Below are positions 2,790 to 21,504 of a DNA stretch of 64,000 nt, piece after piece. This stretch comes from Desmonostoc vinosum HA7617-LM4 (GTDB lineage: Bacteria > Cyanobacteriota > Cyanobacteriia > Cyanobacteriales > Nostocaceae): assembly GCA_019359515.1 (NCBI GenBank), contig JAHHHC010000026.1, forward strand, positions 1 through 64,000, given 5' to 3'. A program made the position numbers and the translations under genes. The notes under the pieces are model-generated. The model was given only the letters and a program-made list of their open reading frames with translations. It was not told the origin of the DNA and did not search any database. Positions within the stretch are counted from its first letter, which is position 1, and each line of letters starts with the position of its first letter.

Positions 2790-3473
2790 ATGTGGTGTGG
2801 GTTTGGAAAATCAAGCGTGGCTATCACTGCTATCTGCTTGGTAACTGCTGGCGTAGTAATTTCTGACATAGGTTTTGCTGCCCGTAAGCAAAACTATACG
2901 CCACAACAATTCCGCGCTGTATTGCGGGGATTAGGCTATAACGTCAAGGTAACAAATGCACCTTTGACGGATGAAGAAACCAAAAAAGCAATCCGTGAAT
3001 TTCAGAAAGGCTACAGGCTAAGTTCTGTTGATGGCATAGCGGGGCCCAAAACCCAAGATTTTGCTGCCAACATCATGCAAATTCTGCAAGCTAATTTGAA
3101 TGCAGTAATTAAGCCTAATCCGCCACTCCCCCGTGATCAATTTTACGGCCCTCGGACGGAAGAAGTAGTCAAGGAGTTTCAGAAGAAATATCAGCTGCAA
3201 GAAACAGGAATTGCTAATTTGGCACTCCGCCAAAAGCTGAACGAAGAAGCAAAGAAAGTTATCGGTCAGCCAGCTACCAAGCCATCACCAACAGCTAAAC
3301 CAACGGCTAAACCAACGGCTAAACCGACAGCGACGCCAACGGCGACACCGACAGCGACGCCAACGGCGACACCGACAACCACGCCAACGGCGACACCAAC
3401 AACCACGCCAACAGCGACGCCAACGGCGACACCAACAACCACGCCAACGGCGACACCTACGACTACACCCTAG
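2790..3473 (+). CDS. Secreted peptidoglycan-binding protein
   Basis: 227 aa. A signal peptide (about 1-31, ending near GFAA) is followed by two PG_binding_1-like helical repeats (about 35-90 and 95-155; FRAVLRGLGYNV... and VKEFQKKYQLQETG). The tail (about 165-227) is almost entirely Pro, Thr and Ala repeats, typical of a wall-spanning linker. AAAGGAG lies about 10 nt before the ATG. It probably binds peptidoglycan in the periplasm, and no catalytic domain is present. The tail DNA is a 12-bp-type tandem repeat and may vary in length between strains. Confidence 0.9.
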   Translation: MWCGFGKSSVAITAICLVTAGVVISDIGFAARKQNYTPQQFRAVLRGLGYNVKVTNAPLTDEETKKAIREFQKGYRLSSVDGIAGPKTQDFAANIMQILQANLNAVIKPNPPLPRDQFYGPRTEEVVKEFQKKYQLQETGIANLALRQKLNEEAKKVIGQPATKPSPTAKPTAKPTAKPTATPTATPTATPTATPTTTPTATPTTTPTATPTATPTTTPTATPTTTP

Positions 3474-3485
3474 AAATCATCAAAA

Positions 3486-3541
3486 AAATCGGCGTGAATC
3501 TCACTCTGTAAGGGATGGGAGGGACACACGTTCGCCGATTT
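3486..3541. terminator. Inverted repeat between convergent genes
   Basis: Arms AAATCGGCG (3486-3494) and CGCCGATTT (3533-3541) are perfectly complementary with a 38-nt loop. They lie between the convergent genes ending at 3473 and 3547. The loop is long for an intrinsic terminator, so the role is a guess. Confidence 0.35.
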
Positions 3542-3546
3542 AGTGA

Positions 3547-4440
3547 TTAATTCATTTGATTCGGTTCTTCTAAGGGTCTGCCCTTGGGTGTGGGTAAAAT
3601 TGGGCGGCGATCATCGTAAGGCATAGGAATATACTGAACGGTGGGTCGCCCTCCTTGGGGTTGTGGGTATAAATCCATGAGTTCATAAATCGAACGGGGC
3701 AGTCCGACTGTTATGGGCAGCCCCATTTCTGTTGCTTCCTCAACAGTGATGGGATAGTCATGGGTGACGCGTCCAGTTGTCAAAGCTTCAATAATCGGTT
3801 CGATGTTTTCTGGCTGAACTTTCTGCTTAGGTATACTATCTTTGAGTAAAGTCCGTACAAACCGCTGTACTTGTTGAATGGCTTTGCCTGAGAGGTCTGC
3901 CATAATTAGAGTTTGGTCATCAATTTCGCTGATGGGTTTATCTGCAACTACTTTTAGGATACTCGCCGCCGGATAGTTACCAAGTTGGGGATCAACCGGG
4001 CCTAAAACAGCGTTAGCATCCATAACAATTTCATCAGCGGCCAGGGCTAGCATTGTACCGCCACTCATGGCGTAATGAGGTACATAGACGGTAACTTTTG
4101 CTGTATGACGAATTAAGGCTCTGGAAATTTGTTCGGTAGCTAATACCAAACCACCAGGAGTGTGCAAAATTAAATCAATTGGTATATCTGGTGGGGTGAG
4201 GCGAATTGCCCGCAGTATCTGTTCGGAGTCTTCGATAGTAATGTAGCGAGATATAGGAATTCCTAATAAGCTAATGGACTCTTGACGGTGAATTAGTAAA
4301 ATCACCCGGCTGTTGCGTTCGCGTTGAAATTCGTGCAAAGCACGAAAGCGGCGATATTCCATCTGACGTTTTTGCCAGATGGGCTGTAAGGAAGAAAGCA
4401 GCAAGAAAATCCAGAATAAATCACCAATACCGAATCCCAT
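3547..4440 (-). CDS. SDH/ClpP-fold serine protease, membrane-anchored
   Basis: 297 aa. An N-terminal membrane segment (about 6-20) precedes a ClpP/crotonase-type domain of the SDH_sah (serine dehydrogenase proteinase) family, related to SppA. HTPGG (93-97) forms the oxyanion region, and Ser126 in AMSGGTM is the likely nucleophile. A possible catalytic Lys or His lies further on, but I cannot place it with certainty. It is likely to act on membrane or secreted peptides. The gene is convergent with the peptidoglycan-binding protein and ends just beyond the inverted repeat at 3486-3541. Confidence 0.88.
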   Translation of the reverse strand: MGFGIGDLFWIFLLLSSLQPIWQKRQMEYRRFRALHEFQRERNSRVILLIHRQESISLLGIPISRYITIEDSEQILRAIRLTPPDIPIDLILHTPGGLVLATEQISRALIRHTAKVTVYVPHYAMSGGTMLALAADEIVMDANAVLGPVDPQLGNYPAASILKVVADKPISEIDDQTLIMADLSGKAIQQVQRFVRTLLKDSIPKQKVQPENIEPIIEALTTGRVTHDYPITVEEATEMGLPITVGLPRSIYELMDLYPQPQGGRPTVQYIPMPYDDRRPILPTPKGRPLEEPNQMN

Positions 4441-11995: not shown

Positions 11996-13063
11996 ATGAC
12001 ACACCTATTTGAACCACTCAAGATTCGTGAAATTACCTTTCGCAATCGCATCGCTGTTTCACCGATGTGTCAATACTCAAGTACAGATGGATATGCCAAT
12101 GACTGGCATTTGGTTCATTTAGCTTCTCGTGCAGTTGGTGGTGCAGCTGTAGTCCTAACAGAGGCCGCAGCTGTTGAGCCTCGTGGGCGCATTAGTCCAC
12201 AAGATTTGGGAATCTGGTCAGACGCACATATAGACACTTTAGCCAAGACTGTCGAAATAATTCATAACCTTGGCTCTGTTGCAGGTATTCAACTCGCTCA
12301 TGCAGGTAGAAAGGCTAGTACTGCTAAACCAAGTAAAGGAGGAAAAGCACTAGATGAATCTCAGGAAGGTTGGCGTCCTGTGGTTTCGAGTAGTGCGATC
12401 GCTTTTAGCAAAGATAGCCCAGTACCTGAAGCTCTCACTCTCGTCGGCATTCAGCAAGTGATTGACGCCTTTGTGGAAGCTGCTAAACGTTCTCTGCAAG
12501 CTGGATTCAAGGTAATTGAAATCCATGCTGCCCATGGTTACTTGCTGCATCAATTTCTCTCACCTTTGGCTAACCATCGCACAGATAATTATGGTGGTAG
12601 CTTTGAAAACCGTACCCGTCTGTTGAGAGAGGTTGTTCAAGGAGTGCGAGAGGTGTGGCCACAGACAAATCCACTTTGGGTACGCGTCTCTGCAACTGAT
12701 TGGGTGGAAAAGGGTTGGGATATAGAGCAAAGCATAGCTTTGAGTAGCAAACTCAAGTATTTGGGAGTTGACCTCATTGACTGTTCTTCAGGGGGTATCA
12801 TACCGGGCATCAACATCCCGGTTAAACCCAGTTATCAGACTAATTTTGCTGAACGTATTCGCAAAGAAGCAAATATTTATACAGGAGCCGTAGGTTTAAT
12901 TACATCCCCCGAACAAGCAGATCAGATTATTCGTACAGGAGCAGCTGATGTAGTGTTGTTGGGGCGCGAACTGCTGCGTAATCCCTACTGGCCGCACCTT
13001 GCGGCTAAACAGCTAGGACATGAGAAACTCTGGCCTGTGCAATATGACCGAGCTTGGGTGTGA
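11996..13063 (+). CDS. Old-yellow-enzyme NADH:flavin oxidoreductase (YqjM-like)
   Basis: 355 aa. FMN-binding TIM barrel. SPMCQYSSTDG near the N-terminus, the HAAHGYLLHQFLSP segment and YGGSFENRTR are characteristic of the YqjM/NamA branch that reduces activated C=C bonds with NADPH. The C-terminal phosphate-binding part is LITSPEQADQIIRTGAADVVLLGRELL. An upstream ATG at 11885 would add 37 residues encoded by TTCCTCATTCCCC repeats, so the ATG at 11996, which follows GAAGGAATC, is chosen. An STRR array starts 2 nt after the stop codon. Confidence 0.95.
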   Translation: MTHLFEPLKIREITFRNRIAVSPMCQYSSTDGYANDWHLVHLASRAVGGAAVVLTEAAAVEPRGRISPQDLGIWSDAHIDTLAKTVEIIHNLGSVAGIQLAHAGRKASTAKPSKGGKALDESQEGWRPVVSSSAIAFSKDSPVPEALTLVGIQQVIDAFVEAAKRSLQAGFKVIEIHAAHGYLLHQFLSPLANHRTDNYGGSFENRTRLLREVVQGVREVWPQTNPLWVRVSATDWVEKGWDIEQSIALSSKLKYLGVDLIDCSSGGIIPGINIPVKPSYQTNFAERIRKEANIYTGAVGLITSPEQADQIIRTGAADVVLLGRELLRNPYWPHLAAKQLGHEKLWPVQYDRAWV

Positions 13064-13064
13064 G

Positions 13065-13169
13065 GACTGGGGACTGGGGACTGGGGACTGGGGACTGGGG
13101 ACTGGGGACTGGGGACTGGGGACTGGGGAATGGGGAATGGGGACTGGGGACTGGGGACTGGGGAATGGG
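13065..13169. repeat. GGGGACT STRR array
   Basis: About 15 tandem heptamers (GGGGACT with a few GGGGAAT) beginning immediately after the oxidoreductase stop and ending before the terminator at 13191-13213. Confidence 0.95.
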
Positions 13170-13190
13170 GCAATATGGTTAAGCTAAAAA

Positions 13191-13459: not shown

Positions 13460-13473
13460 GTAACTGTTGCTAC
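13460..13473. promoter_or_regulatory. NtcA-type box between divergent genes
   Basis: The sequence is GTA, eight bases, TAC, a perfect match to the NtcA consensus GTA-N8-TAC. On the minus strand a TATGTT (13448-13443) lies 11 nt downstream, which would put the box over the -35 region (repressor-like). Alternatively, TACAAG follows at 22 nt, the spacing of NtcA-activated promoters. Both are possible. It could also affect the divergent gene starting at 13512. Confidence 0.6.
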
Positions 13474-13511
13474 AGAAATTATTCATTTATTATAAAACTA
13501 AATGGTCAACT

Positions 13512-14312
13512 ATGTCCAAAAGTCAGATCGATCAACATACACTCCTGACCTTACTCAGCGATTTTGGCGATCGCGATGTATACGTGGGTGTTATGAAAGG
13601 GGTGATTGCTCAAATCAATCCTGGGTTAAAGGTGGTGGATTTGACACACCAAATTCCACCACAAAACATTGCCGCAGCCAGGTTTTGCTTGATGAATGCT
13701 TACTCTTATTTCCCGGTGGGGACAGTGCATGTAGCAGTGGTAGATCCGGGCGTGGGCAGTCAACGACGAGCGATCGCTGTAGAATTTGCTCAAGGGTTTT
13801 TGGTTGGCCCAGATAATGGTATCTTCAGCGGCATACTCAGTCAAAGCCAAGCGATCGCAGCAGTTGAACTCACAAACCCCCATTTTTGGAGAACTTCGCA
13901 ACCCAGTAGCACATTCCACGGTAGAGATATTTTTGCCCCAGTCGGAGCTAATCTTGCTAGTGGTGTTTCTCTCAAACAATTAGGACAAGAAATAGATTTA
14001 GCAACTCTAGTACAGTTAGATATCGACTCGCTGCAAATCACCACAACTGGTATAGCTGGTTGTATTCAATACATTGACCACTTTGGCAACTTAGTTAGCA
14101 ACATTTCAGGTAGTTATGTTCAAGGCAAAGCTTGGTGTGTGCAAATTGCTGAACTGACAATCATGGGGTGTGAAACTTACAGCGATGTCAAAACTGGCGA
14201 GGCGATCGCTTTAGTTGGTAGTCACGGCTGGGTAGAAATTGCCATCAATGGCGGGAATGCACATACACAGTTACAGATTAACTGGCAAGATGGTTTATTG
14301 GTCATTATTTAA
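13512..14312 (+). CDS. SAM hydroxide adenosyltransferase (DUF62)
   Basis: 266 aa from the ATG at 13512. Earlier starts only add residues read from the promoter region. DUF62/SAM-AMT fold, which hydrolyses S-adenosylmethionine to adenosine and methionine. LLSDFGDRDVYVGVMKG, the VVDPGVGSQRRAIAV segment and FHGRDIFAPVGANLASG are the conserved motifs, and the C-terminal domain has YIDHFGNLVSNI. It overlaps the convergent 60-aa gene by 18 bp at its 3' end. Confidence 0.93.
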   Translation: MSKSQIDQHTLLTLLSDFGDRDVYVGVMKGVIAQINPGLKVVDLTHQIPPQNIAAARFCLMNAYSYFPVGTVHVAVVDPGVGSQRRAIAVEFAQGFLVGPDNGIFSGILSQSQAIAAVELTNPHFWRTSQPSSTFHGRDIFAPVGANLASGVSLKQLGQEIDLATLVQLDIDSLQITTTGIAGCIQYIDHFGNLVSNISGSYVQGKAWCVQIAELTIMGCETYSDVKTGEAIALVGSHGWVEIAINGGNAHTQLQINWQDGLLVII

Positions 14313-14477
14313 TACACCTGCTTCTTTTTCAATCCTATCTAGTGCCCGTTTAGCACGAAAAACAACTTTTAAATAAGTTAACTGACTATTCCAGGATGAA
14401 CGAGGTAATAGAGTTGCTTGAGACTCAGAAGTAGTTATATTTTCTGAAGAGATGGAATCAAGAGAAATATCATTCAT
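14295..14477 (-). CDS. 60-aa protein at the end of the RiPP operon (PlpY-like candidate)
   Basis: Begins MNDISLDSISSEN and has a basic helical centre (QLTYLKVVFRAKRALDRIEKEAG). It starts 21 nt after the radical SAM gene on the same strand, with no strong ribosome site. In known tyramine-excising splicease clusters (PlpX/PlpY, PcpX/PcpY) the radical SAM enzyme needs a small partner encoded next to it. This protein has the right size and position, but homology is not shown here. The alternative is a stand-alone small ORF. Its 3' end overlaps the convergent gene ending at 14312. Confidence 0.65.
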   Translation of the reverse strand: MNDISLDSISSENITTSESQATLLPRSSWNSQLTYLKVVFRAKRALDRIEKEAGVLNNDQ

Positions 14478-14498
14478 AGCAGTAGTATTTTATCGCTT

Positions 14499-15764
14499 TT
14501 AATAACTGGAACTAACCAAGGATGGTACTAAATTAGGTTCTTCTTCCCAACCTTCTGGCCATTGAATTTTGTCGGCGGTAAAGTGAAGCGGATCATTTTC
14601 TGGCCAAGGAGTATTAATCGGTTCTTCTATCAAAGCAAACTCGCCATTATCAAAGGGATTGCCATCTGCCCGACGTTGAAGATATACTCGCTCCCGGATA
14701 TCGCGTTTTTCTTGAGTGAGGGCACGATAATGACAGTAAGGATTGTTACCTCTCTTATCAAAGAAAACATGAGCAGTCCAACTACAACCACCGCGACAGA
14801 GTTCGGCAAATTCACAAGTTTTGCAGAAACCCCACAAGTGTTCTGTTCCTTTGGGAGTACCTGCTCCCAAATTAAACCGCAGTTCCTCTGTTTCTTCGAT
14901 GATTTTCCGCAGTGAATGGTCGCGGATATTGCCGCCGGTATAAGCTGTAGTCGGCAGTGAGGGACAACCTTTGATAGCGCCATCAGCTTCAATACCTAAA
15001 GCAGCAAGTCCAGCACTGCATCCTTGCCAAAAAGTCCAAGCATCCCCTCCGCCTCTGAGTATTCGCTCATAGGGGCCGTAATAACCGATGTTGTTTCCTG
15101 GCTGCACCTGTACCCCTTCTCGCCTTGCTCGTTGAGCAACACGAGCAATCATGGGGTATACATCAAGTAGTTCATATGGTTGCAGCAAAATTTCACTATT
15201 ATCTGCTGCATTCCCCATGGGAACAGTTAATTGAATTTGCCAAGCAAAAATTCCAGCATCACGTAGATATTCGTAAATACGAGGAAATTCTGGTGCTGAG
15301 AGGCGATTAATTTGAGTATTACAGCCAAAAGAAATACCTGCTTGCTTGAGATGGCTCATGGTCTTAAAGGCCCATTGCCAAGAACCTTGTCTGCCACGGA
15401 TACGGTCATGAGTCGCTTCTAAACCATCAACAGAAACTGACACTACATTAATACCTGCATCTTTCATGCGATGTGCTGTGTCCAGAGTGATACCATAACC
15501 GCCAGTAGTCATACCACACAACATTCCTGCTTTGGTAATTGCTTGGGCAATCTCTAACCAGTCAGGACGCAGAAATGCTTCACCACCAATGATAGTTACT
15601 TCTGTAATTCCCACGTCTGCCATTTGTTTGACTAAATCTAGCGCTTCGGCTGTAGAGAGTTCTTTGGCTCTTGTATGCCCTGCACGAGAACCGCAATGCT
15701 GACAAGCTAGATTACACTTGAGTGTGATTTCCCAAACTGCATAACTAATTCGGCGATAAGTCAT
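14499..15764 (-). CDS. Radical SAM/SPASM RiPP maturase (Nif11-class, splicease-like)
   Basis: 421 aa. The radical SAM core has CX3CX2C (CNLACQHC, Cys17, Cys21, Cys24) for the 4Fe-4S cluster. The C-terminal SPASM part (about 270-380) has Cys in KGCPSL, CKTCEFAELCRGGC and NPYCHYRA for auxiliary clusters. Start ATG has GAGGG about 9 nt upstream. The type corresponds to Nif11-class peptide radical SAM maturases, the group that includes PlpX, which cuts tyramine from X-Tyr-Gly sites to leave an alpha-keto-beta-amino acid. Two Nif11 precursors with such sites lie upstream in the same orientation. Chemistry is inferred from context. Confidence 0.92.
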   Translation of the reverse strand: MTYRRISYAVWEITLKCNLACQHCGSRAGHTRAKELSTAEALDLVKQMADVGITEVTIIGGEAFLRPDWLEIAQAITKAGMLCGMTTGGYGITLDTAHRMKDAGINVVSVSVDGLEATHDRIRGRQGSWQWAFKTMSHLKQAGISFGCNTQINRLSAPEFPRIYEYLRDAGIFAWQIQLTVPMGNAADNSEILLQPYELLDVYPMIARVAQRARREGVQVQPGNNIGYYGPYERILRGGGDAWTFWQGCSAGLAALGIEADGAIKGCPSLPTTAYTGGNIRDHSLRKIIEETEELRFNLGAGTPKGTEHLWGFCKTCEFAELCRGGCSWTAHVFFDKRGNNPYCHYRALTQEKRDIRERVYLQRRADGNPFDNGEFALIEEPINTPWPENDPLHFTADKIQWPEGWEEEPNLVPSLVSSSY

Positions 15765-15796
15765 TATAAATACCCTCTATATAATCTTTTGAGAGA

Positions 15797-15822
15797 AGGA
15801 CGGATGTATGGTCATCCGTCCT
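15797..15822 (-). promoter_or_regulatory. Stem-loop between precursor and maturase genes
   Basis: A perfect 10-bp stem (AGGACGGATG / CATCCGTCCT) with a 6-nt loop, in the 112-bp gap between the second precursor and the radical SAM gene. On the minus strand it is followed by TCTCTC rather than a U-run, so it is more likely a partial terminator or RNA-stabilising element giving more precursor than enzyme. Confidence 0.6.
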
Positions 15823-15876
15823 CATTACAACGGATGTTGCTGATGTTTTTCTAAATATCAAGCCTGTTTAGTGAAT

Positions 15877-16263
15877 TTATGCTAAATCGTCACTTCTGAC
15901 GATTCCATACATCGGCTGCACAATTCCATAAAGAGGTTGAGGGCCAATTGGTGGCCATTTGATGGGTGGCCAAATAACAACTCCGTATAACGGTCGGATA
16001 TCTGGCCGTCCTAGAATTGACGAAGCCCCACCAAAAACAGCTTCTAGTTCTTTTTCATCCAAGTCCTTGAGTTCACCTTCACCAGAGATTGACTCTAATA
16101 CTTGAGTTGTATATTGTTCAAACTCTGCTTGAGTAAAGTCGTAGCCGGCGCTTTTTACAACTTGGCTGCATTCTTCTTTAGTTGTAACTTCCTGCATTTG
16201 AGTGCGGAAAGCTTCATCGTTTGCCAGCCTTGCATAAAAGGCTTGGACATTTTCTAGTGACAT
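15877..16263 (-). CDS. Nif11-leader RiPP precursor with three XYG sites
   Basis: 128 aa. Residues 1-79 are a Nif11-type leader (MSLENVQAFYARLANDEAFR...) ending in Gly78-Gly79, a double-Gly cleavage site. The 49-residue core contains LYG (92-94), LYG (111-113) and MYG (118-120), each followed by Val-Val or Ile-Val, plus a duplicated Trp-Pro-Pro-Ile block. X-Tyr-Gly is the substrate motif of tyramine-excising spliceases, so up to three backbone edits are predicted. AAGGAG lies 7-8 nt before the ATG. No transporter or peptidase gene is found in the operon. Confidence 0.92.
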   Translation of the reverse strand: MSLENVQAFYARLANDEAFRTQMQEVTTKEECSQVVKSAGYDFTQAEFEQYTTQVLESISGEGELKDLDEKELEAVFGGASSILGRPDIRPLYGVVIWPPIKWPPIGPQPLYGIVQPMYGIVRSDDLA

Positions 16264-16330
16264 AAATTTTCTCCTTGTTAAATTGCCTTACTAGATAGCA
16301 ATTGTTTCTATAAACTGAGAATTCTCAGTA

Positions 16331-16651
16331 TTACAACAAGAATTTCCAGAGACCACTCGGCGCTCCATAAATCAAGATCAATCTAGGAAATATTCCTGCT
16401 AAAGCTGCTGTTGCTCCACCAACAACAGTTTCTAGCTCTGCTTCATCGACATCTCTGAGTTCACCCTCTCCAGCATTTGATTCTAATATTTGAGTCGTAT
16501 ATTCCTCAAATTCTTCTTGAGTGAAATCGTAGCCAGCTTCTTTAACAATTTGGCTACCTTCATGGGGGTTTGTAACACTTTGAACTTGAGTGCGAAAAGC
16601 TTCATCATTTACTAACCGTTCGTAAAAAGCTCTTACATTTTCTAATGACAT
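16331..16651 (-). CDS. Nif11-leader RiPP precursor with one IYG site
   Basis: 106 aa from the ATG at 16651, which has AGGAGA 7 nt upstream. A 25-residue longer frame upstream lacks leader similarity and is rejected. The leader (1-79) is a clear paralogue of the next gene's leader and ends in Gly78-Gly79. The 27-residue core is hydrophobic and contains a single IYG (94-96) near a Pro-Arg and a Trp. First gene of the operon, 67 bp before the second precursor. The two different cores suggest one enzyme with several products. Confidence 0.9.
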   Translation of the reverse strand: MSLENVRAFYERLVNDEAFRTQVQSVTNPHEGSQIVKEAGYDFTQEEFEEYTTQILESNAGEGELRDVDEAELETVVGGATAALAGIFPRLILIYGAPSGLWKFLL

Positions 16652-17192: not shown

Positions 17193-17825
17193 TTACCGCC
17201 TAATAAACAAGGTGCGATAAACAGGTTCACCCTTATTTTGGGTAAATATTTCCCGTTCTGTAGGAATCGATAGCGGGTTTTCTGTGAGCCATTCTACAGC
17301 ACCAATCTCAAACGCTGGGTGTTCAGCAAAGCGATCGCGCATTTCCACAGCGATAAATTCCATATCCGATTGCAGAAACACCACTCCTCCAACCATCAGA
17401 TATTTTGCTAACGTCGCCACTAATTCTGGTTGCACTACACGACGTTTAGCGTGGCGAGTTTTAAACCAAGGATCGGGAAATTGAATGCTAACTCGCTGCA
17501 AAGTTCCTATGGGGAAGGAAGATAAAAGCGGTCGCAATGAGTTATTTGCATTGCAAAATAGATAATGTAAGTTTGTTAAACCCAACTCAGAACCTAACTT
17601 ATTCGCTTCTACTACCAGTGGTTCTCGAATTTCCAACCCTAAAAAATTCCAGTCGGGTTCTACCTTCGCCATATCTAATAAAAACTTTCCCCTAGCGCAA
17701 CCAATATCTAAATGTAGCGGTTGATTTAGCTTTGCATACACCTTTTCCCAGTCAAGGGGACTCGCTGGGGTTTGATACTTTTGGGCAAGTGGGTTAACAT
17801 GCTGACGAACGCGAACAGGTGGCAA
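17193..17825 (-). CDS. trmB: tRNA (guanine-N7-)-methyltransferase
   Basis: About 210 aa. It methylates G46 of tRNA with SAM. Motif I is [14 protein letters not shown], and the substrate motif [18 protein letters not shown] is diagnostic of TrmB. The C-terminus has [17 protein letters not shown]. No ATG fits. A TTG at 17825 has AAGGAGA with 7-nt spacing, while the TTG at 17831 is only 1 nt from GGAG. An STRR array begins 4 nt upstream of the ribosome site, so the promoter must lie inside or beyond it. Confidence 0.93.
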
Positions 17826-17840
17826 ATTCAATCTCCTTTA

Positions 17841-17959
17841 CTGGGGACTGGGGACTGGGGACTGGGGACTGGGGACTGGGGACTGGGGACTGGGGACTGG
17901 GGACTGGGGACTGGGGACTGGGGACTGGGGACTGGGGACTGGGGACTGGGGACTGGGGA
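17841..17959. repeat. GGGGACT STRR array
   Basis: About 17 uninterrupted GGGGACT heptamers, then GACGCGGAGACGCGG. It directly abuts the trmB leader and is the most regular of the arrays in the window. Confidence 0.95.
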
Positions 17960-18000
17960 AGACGCGGAGACGCGGAGAATAATTAATTACGAATTACGAA

Positions 18001-21320: not shown

Positions 21321-21460
21321 AGCTGATTCCTCGTTGACTGTAAGCCTGATTTTTAAAGCTTCGTATTGATTTAGCTTGATTTCTACCTTACTTATTATAT
21401 TAATTCATTGCAAAATATTAAGAAATATCAAGTTTCGCAAAAATAAGACCGTAAAAAAAT

Positions 21461-21483
21461 AGGACAGGTACATTACCTGTCCT
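21461..21483 (-). terminator. psbK terminator
   Basis: A 10-bp perfect stem AGGACAGGTA/TACCTGTCCT with a 3-nt loop. On the minus strand it is followed by A then seven Ts. It starts 22 nt after the psbK stop. Confidence 0.92.
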
Positions 21484-21504
21484 AAAACTTGGTAATAGAT
21501 TAAC

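Follow-up and report, generated by a model that had tools for sequence, protein, structure and literature searches.

A predicted spliceotide-type operon with one-site and three-site Nif11 precursors and a conserved hairpin in Desmonostoc vinosum HA7617-LM4

The closest described system to the locus studied here is the plp spliceotide cluster. In the passages of PMC11002830 that deal with it, PlpX is assigned to family IPR026482, PlpY is a truncated recognition element and X-Tyr-Gly is the site of the reaction; the cluster is described there as encoding an epimerase along with precursors whose leaders are of two types. In the review sections concerned, spliceotide chemistry is called widely distributed in bacteria, and a 2022 review states that natural spliceotides had until then escaped isolation. 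We analysed positions 1 to 64,000 of contig JAHHHC010000026.1 of the cyanobacterium Desmonostoc vinosum HA7617-LM4 (this whole stretch of 64,000 nucleotides is called the window) and found a four-gene operon, entirely on the minus strand and transcribed from 16651 to 14295, which encodes precursor 1, precursor 2, a radical SAM (S-adenosylmethionine)/SPASM enzyme and a 60-residue protein. Judged from its sequence, this is with a probability of roughly 90% a spliceotide-type operon, in which a PlpX-type enzyme and a PlpY-type helper are predicted to excise tyramine at four X-Tyr-Gly sites.

A reference for the comparison was found in locus L137/L194 (genome G318), whose cores GAVAAMYGVVFP and PLFPIRPLYGLPI match published PlpA-derived splice-site tags; the search of related loci with published peptides gave the L137 cores as GAVAAMYGVVFPW... 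and PLFPIRPLYGLPI. In the tags, as given in the published passages, X is replaced by G, and one tag also occurs in a version with LYG. Inspection by eye of L194, the 18 kb around the L137 locus, identified an epimerase-like radical SAM gene, a precursor whose leader differs and a C39-type transporter-like gene. Because the cores match the tags and these surroundings fit the reviewed description of plp, we take L137/L194 to be the plp cluster of Pleurocapsa sp. PCC 7319.

The window enzyme contains the Pfam domains Radical_SAM and SPASM and scored 838.6 bits against the NCBIfam model TIGR04103 (cut-off 725), with profile positions 1 to 410 of 412 covered. This model is presumably the one that NCBIfam provides for the PlpX family IPR026482. 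The plp-cluster enzyme scored 824.4 bits on the same model and is identical to the window enzyme at 305 of 406 residues (75%), so that the profile comparison with PlpX suggested in the initial annotation places the enzyme in the PlpX family of radical SAM/SPASM proteins by score, by shared model and by identity. Ten cysteines (C17, C21, C24, C249, C267, C314, C317, C323, C327 and C344) were invariant in 17 aligned enzymes, those of the window and of plp among them, and the spacing of these iron-sulphur ligands agrees with the radical SAM CxxxCxxC motif and a seven-cysteine arrangement, which is the SPASM pattern. The closest enzymes are 93-94% identical to that of the window, and its nearest NCBI proteins carry the name nif11-class peptide radical SAM maturase 3; the best PDB match by sequence was only SkfB (E 1.6e-19). 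The operon enzyme is the sole TIGR04103 match over the cut-off in its 7.2-Mb genome, and such matches occurred in 16 of 291 genomes in an even sample of the phylum, its own genome counted.

Radical SAM and SPASM domains are common to enzymes that form crosslinks, and 83 NCBIfam models matched the window enzyme at E <= 0.1. It could thus in principle introduce a thioether or a carbon-carbon ring, as in sactipeptides, ranthipeptides and related SPASM systems. We consider this very improbable, since TIGR04103 alone exceeded its cut-off among the best 25 of the 83 models, both precursor cores are free of cysteine, and the enrichment of X-Tyr-Gly described below and the 75% identity to the plp enzyme also argue against it. 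The runner-up model, TIGR03913, reached 424.7 bits, below its cut-off of 591.75. In sactipeptides and ranthipeptides a core cysteine is the thioether donor; membership in these classes was rejected for lack of that residue, and the StsB, SkfB and PapB models remained far below cut-off.

The comparison of the small protein with PlpY, also suggested initially, again gave a match. A family profile built from 81 helper stretches of related loci and 20 further proteins, with the plp protein not knowingly included, matched the 56-residue protein of the plp cluster at 44.1 bits in a search of that one sequence, the E-value of which is not a database E-value. Direct alignment of the window and plp proteins yielded 28.9 bits, with 10 of 34 residues identical. 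The profile match indicates a small PlpY-type partner. Relatives were studied in a set of 79 named loci (L027-L105; best 80 of 161 relatives), many of them from Nostoc and related genera, and the helper gene lies downstream of the enzyme gene in all 79. One of these loci, L067 from Rhizonema, has two copies of the helper gene (2563-2722 and 3386-3599). The AlphaFold2 model of the window protein (mean pLDDT 70.4) shows a poorly predicted N-terminus and one helix at residues 26-52; a recognition-element fold was not seen in it. PlpY is described, in the relevant passage of PMC12710340, as too small for that fold.

PlpXY-type spliceotide precursors combine a leader of the Nif11 or nitrile-hydratase-like type with X-Tyr-Gly core motifs. 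Both precursors of the operon carry Nif11 leaders ending in Gly-Gly, with scores over the cut-offs of Pfam PF07862 (23.8; precursor 1, 62.3 bits; precursor 2, 60.4 bits) and TIGR03798 (32.3; 59.7 and 53.9 bits). Their cores, ATAALAGIFPRLILIYGAPSGLWKFLL in precursor 1 and ASSILGRPDIRPLYGVVIWPPIKWPPIGPQPLYGIVQPMYGIVRSDDLA in precursor 2, contain the X-Tyr-Gly motifs that the initial annotation had listed, namely IYG in the former and LYG, LYG and MYG in the latter, and the four frames that it had placed in one orientation were all found where it had put them, on the minus strand. The genome has one further Nif11 match, three in all, which lies elsewhere and is without any Tyr-Gly.

We then asked how common the motif is among relatives, counting Nif11 precursors within 3.5 kb of the enzyme on its strand and leaving the window out. 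This gave 126 precursors in 74 of the 79 loci. Their cores contained 201 Tyr-Gly pairs, whereas 1000 shuffles averaged 24.0 and never exceeded 39, and 201 of their 314 tyrosines stand in Tyr-Gly. Residue X at these sites was Leu in 91, Met in 57, Ile in 16 and another residue in 37. As a control, we considered 42 Nif11 matches from the genome itself and 15 of 20 relatives, 30 of which were examined with 1.5-kb flanks. All eight with the enzyme in the stretch carried one to three Tyr-Gly in the core (for one, L125, the stretch holds only 19 enzyme residues, at its edge). None of the 21 readable matches without a nearby enzyme had X-Tyr-Gly in a Gly-Gly-delimited core, a count that would miss an enzyme farther than 1.5 kb away and in which cores were placed by eye; seven of the 21 have Tyr-Gly in the Nif11 domain or outside such a core. 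The shuffles and this control rule out a chance origin of the motifs.

The three sites of precursor 2 had been regarded as unusual for one core, a view that the relatives do not sustain: such cores are uncommon among them, but they are not new. Among the 126 cores, 5 had no Tyr-Gly, 51 had one, 61 two, 8 three and 1 four (three or four sites in L062, L066, L069, two cores of L088, L090, L097, L098 and L103), and, as the window does, 21 of the 74 loci having a precursor combine single-site with multi-site ones. More distant relatives have four to seven: three enzymes of 61-63% identity still adjoin proteins in which X-Tyr-Gly repeats were seen by eye, with five KYG in L024 (downstream), seven MYG in L025 (upstream) and four Tyr-Gly in L026 (divergent). 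In L025 and L024 the repeats belong to Pro-rich open frames of 281 and 212 residues on the enzyme's strand, in which no Nif11 leader was noticed; these look like highly multi-site substrates.

Not every motif need be used. On a position weight matrix built from the 201 sites of the relatives, the contexts of the first LYG, second LYG and MYG of precursor 2 fell at percentiles 72.6, 37.8 and 80.1, and that of the precursor 1 IYG at 6.0. The low ranks of the middle LYG and the IYG, together with the 61 of 126 related cores that have two sites only, would fit partial splicing, for example at the first LYG and MYG with the other two left unmodified. We regard this as rather unlikely, given that L029 and L030 also have IYG cores like that of precursor 1, and that L066 has a close-spaced pair resembling the second and third sites of precursor 2.

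Under the preferred reading, splicing at all four motifs, tyramine would be excised at one site of precursor 1 and three of precursor 2, giving as many as four reactive alpha-keto-beta-amino acids. Homology to PlpXY predicts that C8H9NO (about 135 Da) would be removed at each tyrosine of X-Tyr-Gly and the chain rejoined. The genome has 12 Peptidase_C39 matches, none of them on the contig of the operon. A leader peptidase beside the operon was therefore rejected, and cleavage of the leader after Gly-Gly would fall to a transporter-peptidase from another part of the genome. The products would most likely be protease inhibitors; in the review passage on this point, beta-residues are said to give potent protease inhibition.

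A few observations weigh against this reading. The context of the precursor 1 IYG is atypical, at the 6th percentile, and the natural PlpXY sites named in the literature passages are MYG and LYG only. Five of the 79 loci are without a profile-detected precursor (L053, L068, L078, L080 and L083; L078, L080 and L083 begin 155-542 bases before the enzyme), and 5 of the 126 neighbouring Nif11 proteins, one of them truncated, lack Tyr-Gly. The pairwise likeness of the window helper to the plp helper is weak (29% over 34 residues), and PlpX and PlpY themselves were identified by peptide match and gene order, not by accession. Gene content, the families of enzyme, helper and leaders, the enrichment of the motif and the conservation of the hairpin described below were established directly. 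We conclude that this is a well-supported spliceotide operon of a known peptide class, for which we infer the reaction, site usage, cleavage, export and bioactivity.

Some TIGR04103 matches in relatives look broken: that in genome G249 (L023) is interrupted by three stop codons, and G325 has partial ones (L139 and L142), which suggests repeated loss. By analogy the window operon could have decayed and make no product; we give this very little credence, as all four of its frames are open and the iron-sulphur cysteines are intact.

Table 1. Operon features in the window (feature, positions, strand, description).
Precursor 1	16331..16651	-	106 aa (amino acids); Nif11 leader ending VVGG; 27-residue hydrophobic core with one IYG
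Precursor 2	15877..16263	-	128 aa; Nif11 leader ending VFGG; 49-residue Pro/Trp-rich core with LYG, LYG, MYG
Hairpin	15794..15826	-	51 nt (nucleotides) after precursor 2 stop codon, ~30 nt before enzyme start; covariance model match
PlpX-type radical SAM/SPASM enzyme (TIGR04103)	14499..15764	-	421 aa; CxxxCxxC and seven conserved SPASM-region cysteines
PlpY-type partner	14295..14477	-	60 aa; LLPRxxW motif, then one predicted helix

The gaps between the genes, from the coordinates, are 67, 112 and 21 bases in the order of transcription, and AGGAG, AGGAG and GAGGG were seen by eye before the first three starts. The second gap holds a hairpin of sequence AGGACGGATGACCATACATCCGTCCT, within the span given in Table 1. 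Folding z-scores averaged -1.43 across 51 gaps of 60-260 bases between precursor and enzyme, and 16 were below -2. Of 80 upstream regions we aligned 37, one from the window and 36 from other loci, selected once folds and sequences had been viewed; the alignment keeps about nine rows in which no hairpin is evident, and some rows, such as L049/L050 and L034/L035, are near-duplicates. In a ten-pair stem read from the same sequences that were used for its statistics, 81.3% of cells were standard pairs, versus 40.5-52.4% when the stem was slid; nine of the ten pairs had changed on both sides, and none of 500 shuffles reached any of five values.

A covariance model was built from 13 rows picked for showing the hairpin, the window not being among them, and it recovered the window hairpin at 33.7 bits (E 7.1e-7). 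Over both strands of 985 kb, it matched 44 times at E <= 0.1. Thirty-two of the 36 on the genes' strand, a number that counts a window match at 21458-21487 (E 0.019), lay 10-110 nt after a precursor stop codon, as did 20 of the 23 outside the training rows. Among these are the window match and eight others (L055, L062, L069, L049, L050, L057 and L036 twice), the latter behind precursors at a distance of 482-1600 nt from the enzyme that comes after them. On the opposite strand there were eight matches, of which only the one in L105 does not overlap a counted genes'-strand match. Since the matches fall mostly just after precursor stops, the element accompanies the precursor genes of these loci. 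In the genome itself the best match was that of the operon (E 5.2e-6), and three others were weaker.

Other results speak against this view of the hairpin. RNAalifold predicted no pair on the raw 37-row alignment, and in the 13-row alignment the shuffle test was weaker on two measures, with 54 and 18 of 500 shuffles reaching the value. A search of 33 whole genomes, with 150 candidates per genome scored, gave 31 matches at E <= 0.01, only 10 of which lie beside a spliceotide locus; the 19 genomes with the enzyme include 10 with such a neighbouring match, and of the 14 that lack a TIGR04103 match at E <= 1e-150, 9 had a hairpin match too, one at E 1.8e-8. The model is therefore not specific to spliceotide loci across these genomes. 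The match at E 1.8e-8 (L158:1501-1533), in a genome without a TIGR04103 match, lies ~230 nt downstream of another kind of small open frame that resembles a Gly-Gly precursor, and the element may also serve precursors of other ribosomally synthesized and post-translationally modified peptides. The only Rfam overlap was sub-threshold and on the other strand (sau-63, 25.1 bits versus a gathering score of 100, E 0.12), and was rejected. No description of the hairpin was found in the literature searched, which did not cover the primary spliceotide papers.

No run of U follows the window hairpin, and we therefore read it either as a stabiliser of the 3' end or as a terminator that is leaky and acts only in part. 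Placed after precursor 2, it would in either role leave precursor in excess over enzyme; its function is likely to keep precursor levels high. We see even odds for the wider proposal that the spliceotide precursor genes of Nostoc-like cyanobacteria have a conserved, covarying GGGACGGAT...ATCCGTCCC hairpin of their own that is repeated after individual precursors where an operon has several and sets the ratio of precursor to enzyme, here with a pair of one-edit and three-edit precursors. The hairpin provides a testable idea of how substrate excess over enzyme could arise, and a marker for precursor genes.

On one side of the operon, a plus-strand gene for a SAM hydroxide adenosyltransferase (13467-14312) overlaps the last 18 bases of the 60-residue protein gene, and trmB (17193-17831) flanks the other. 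Runs of the heptanucleotide repeat GGGGACT occur on either side of the operon stretch, at about 13063-13170 and 17841-17960; short tandem repeats of a similar kind are familiar in heterocystous cyanobacteria.

With its one-site and three-site precursors, the four-gene operon lends itself to clean tests of how a single enzyme copes with several sites, in what order and at what spacing. It resembles the plp cluster in enzyme family, in helper family, in having Nif11 precursors with LYG and MYG and in the order precursors-X-Y, and the context of its first site, IRPLYG, occurs in one plp core. It differs in having three sites in one core and an additional IYG core, and whereas L194 contains epimerase-like and transporter-like genes, the window operon adjoins trmB and the SAM hydroxide adenosyltransferase gene. 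The named related loci have an enzyme and a helper alike in kind, but the exact cores and the order LYG-LYG-MYG belong to the window, the corresponding order in L066 being MYG-LYG-LYG.

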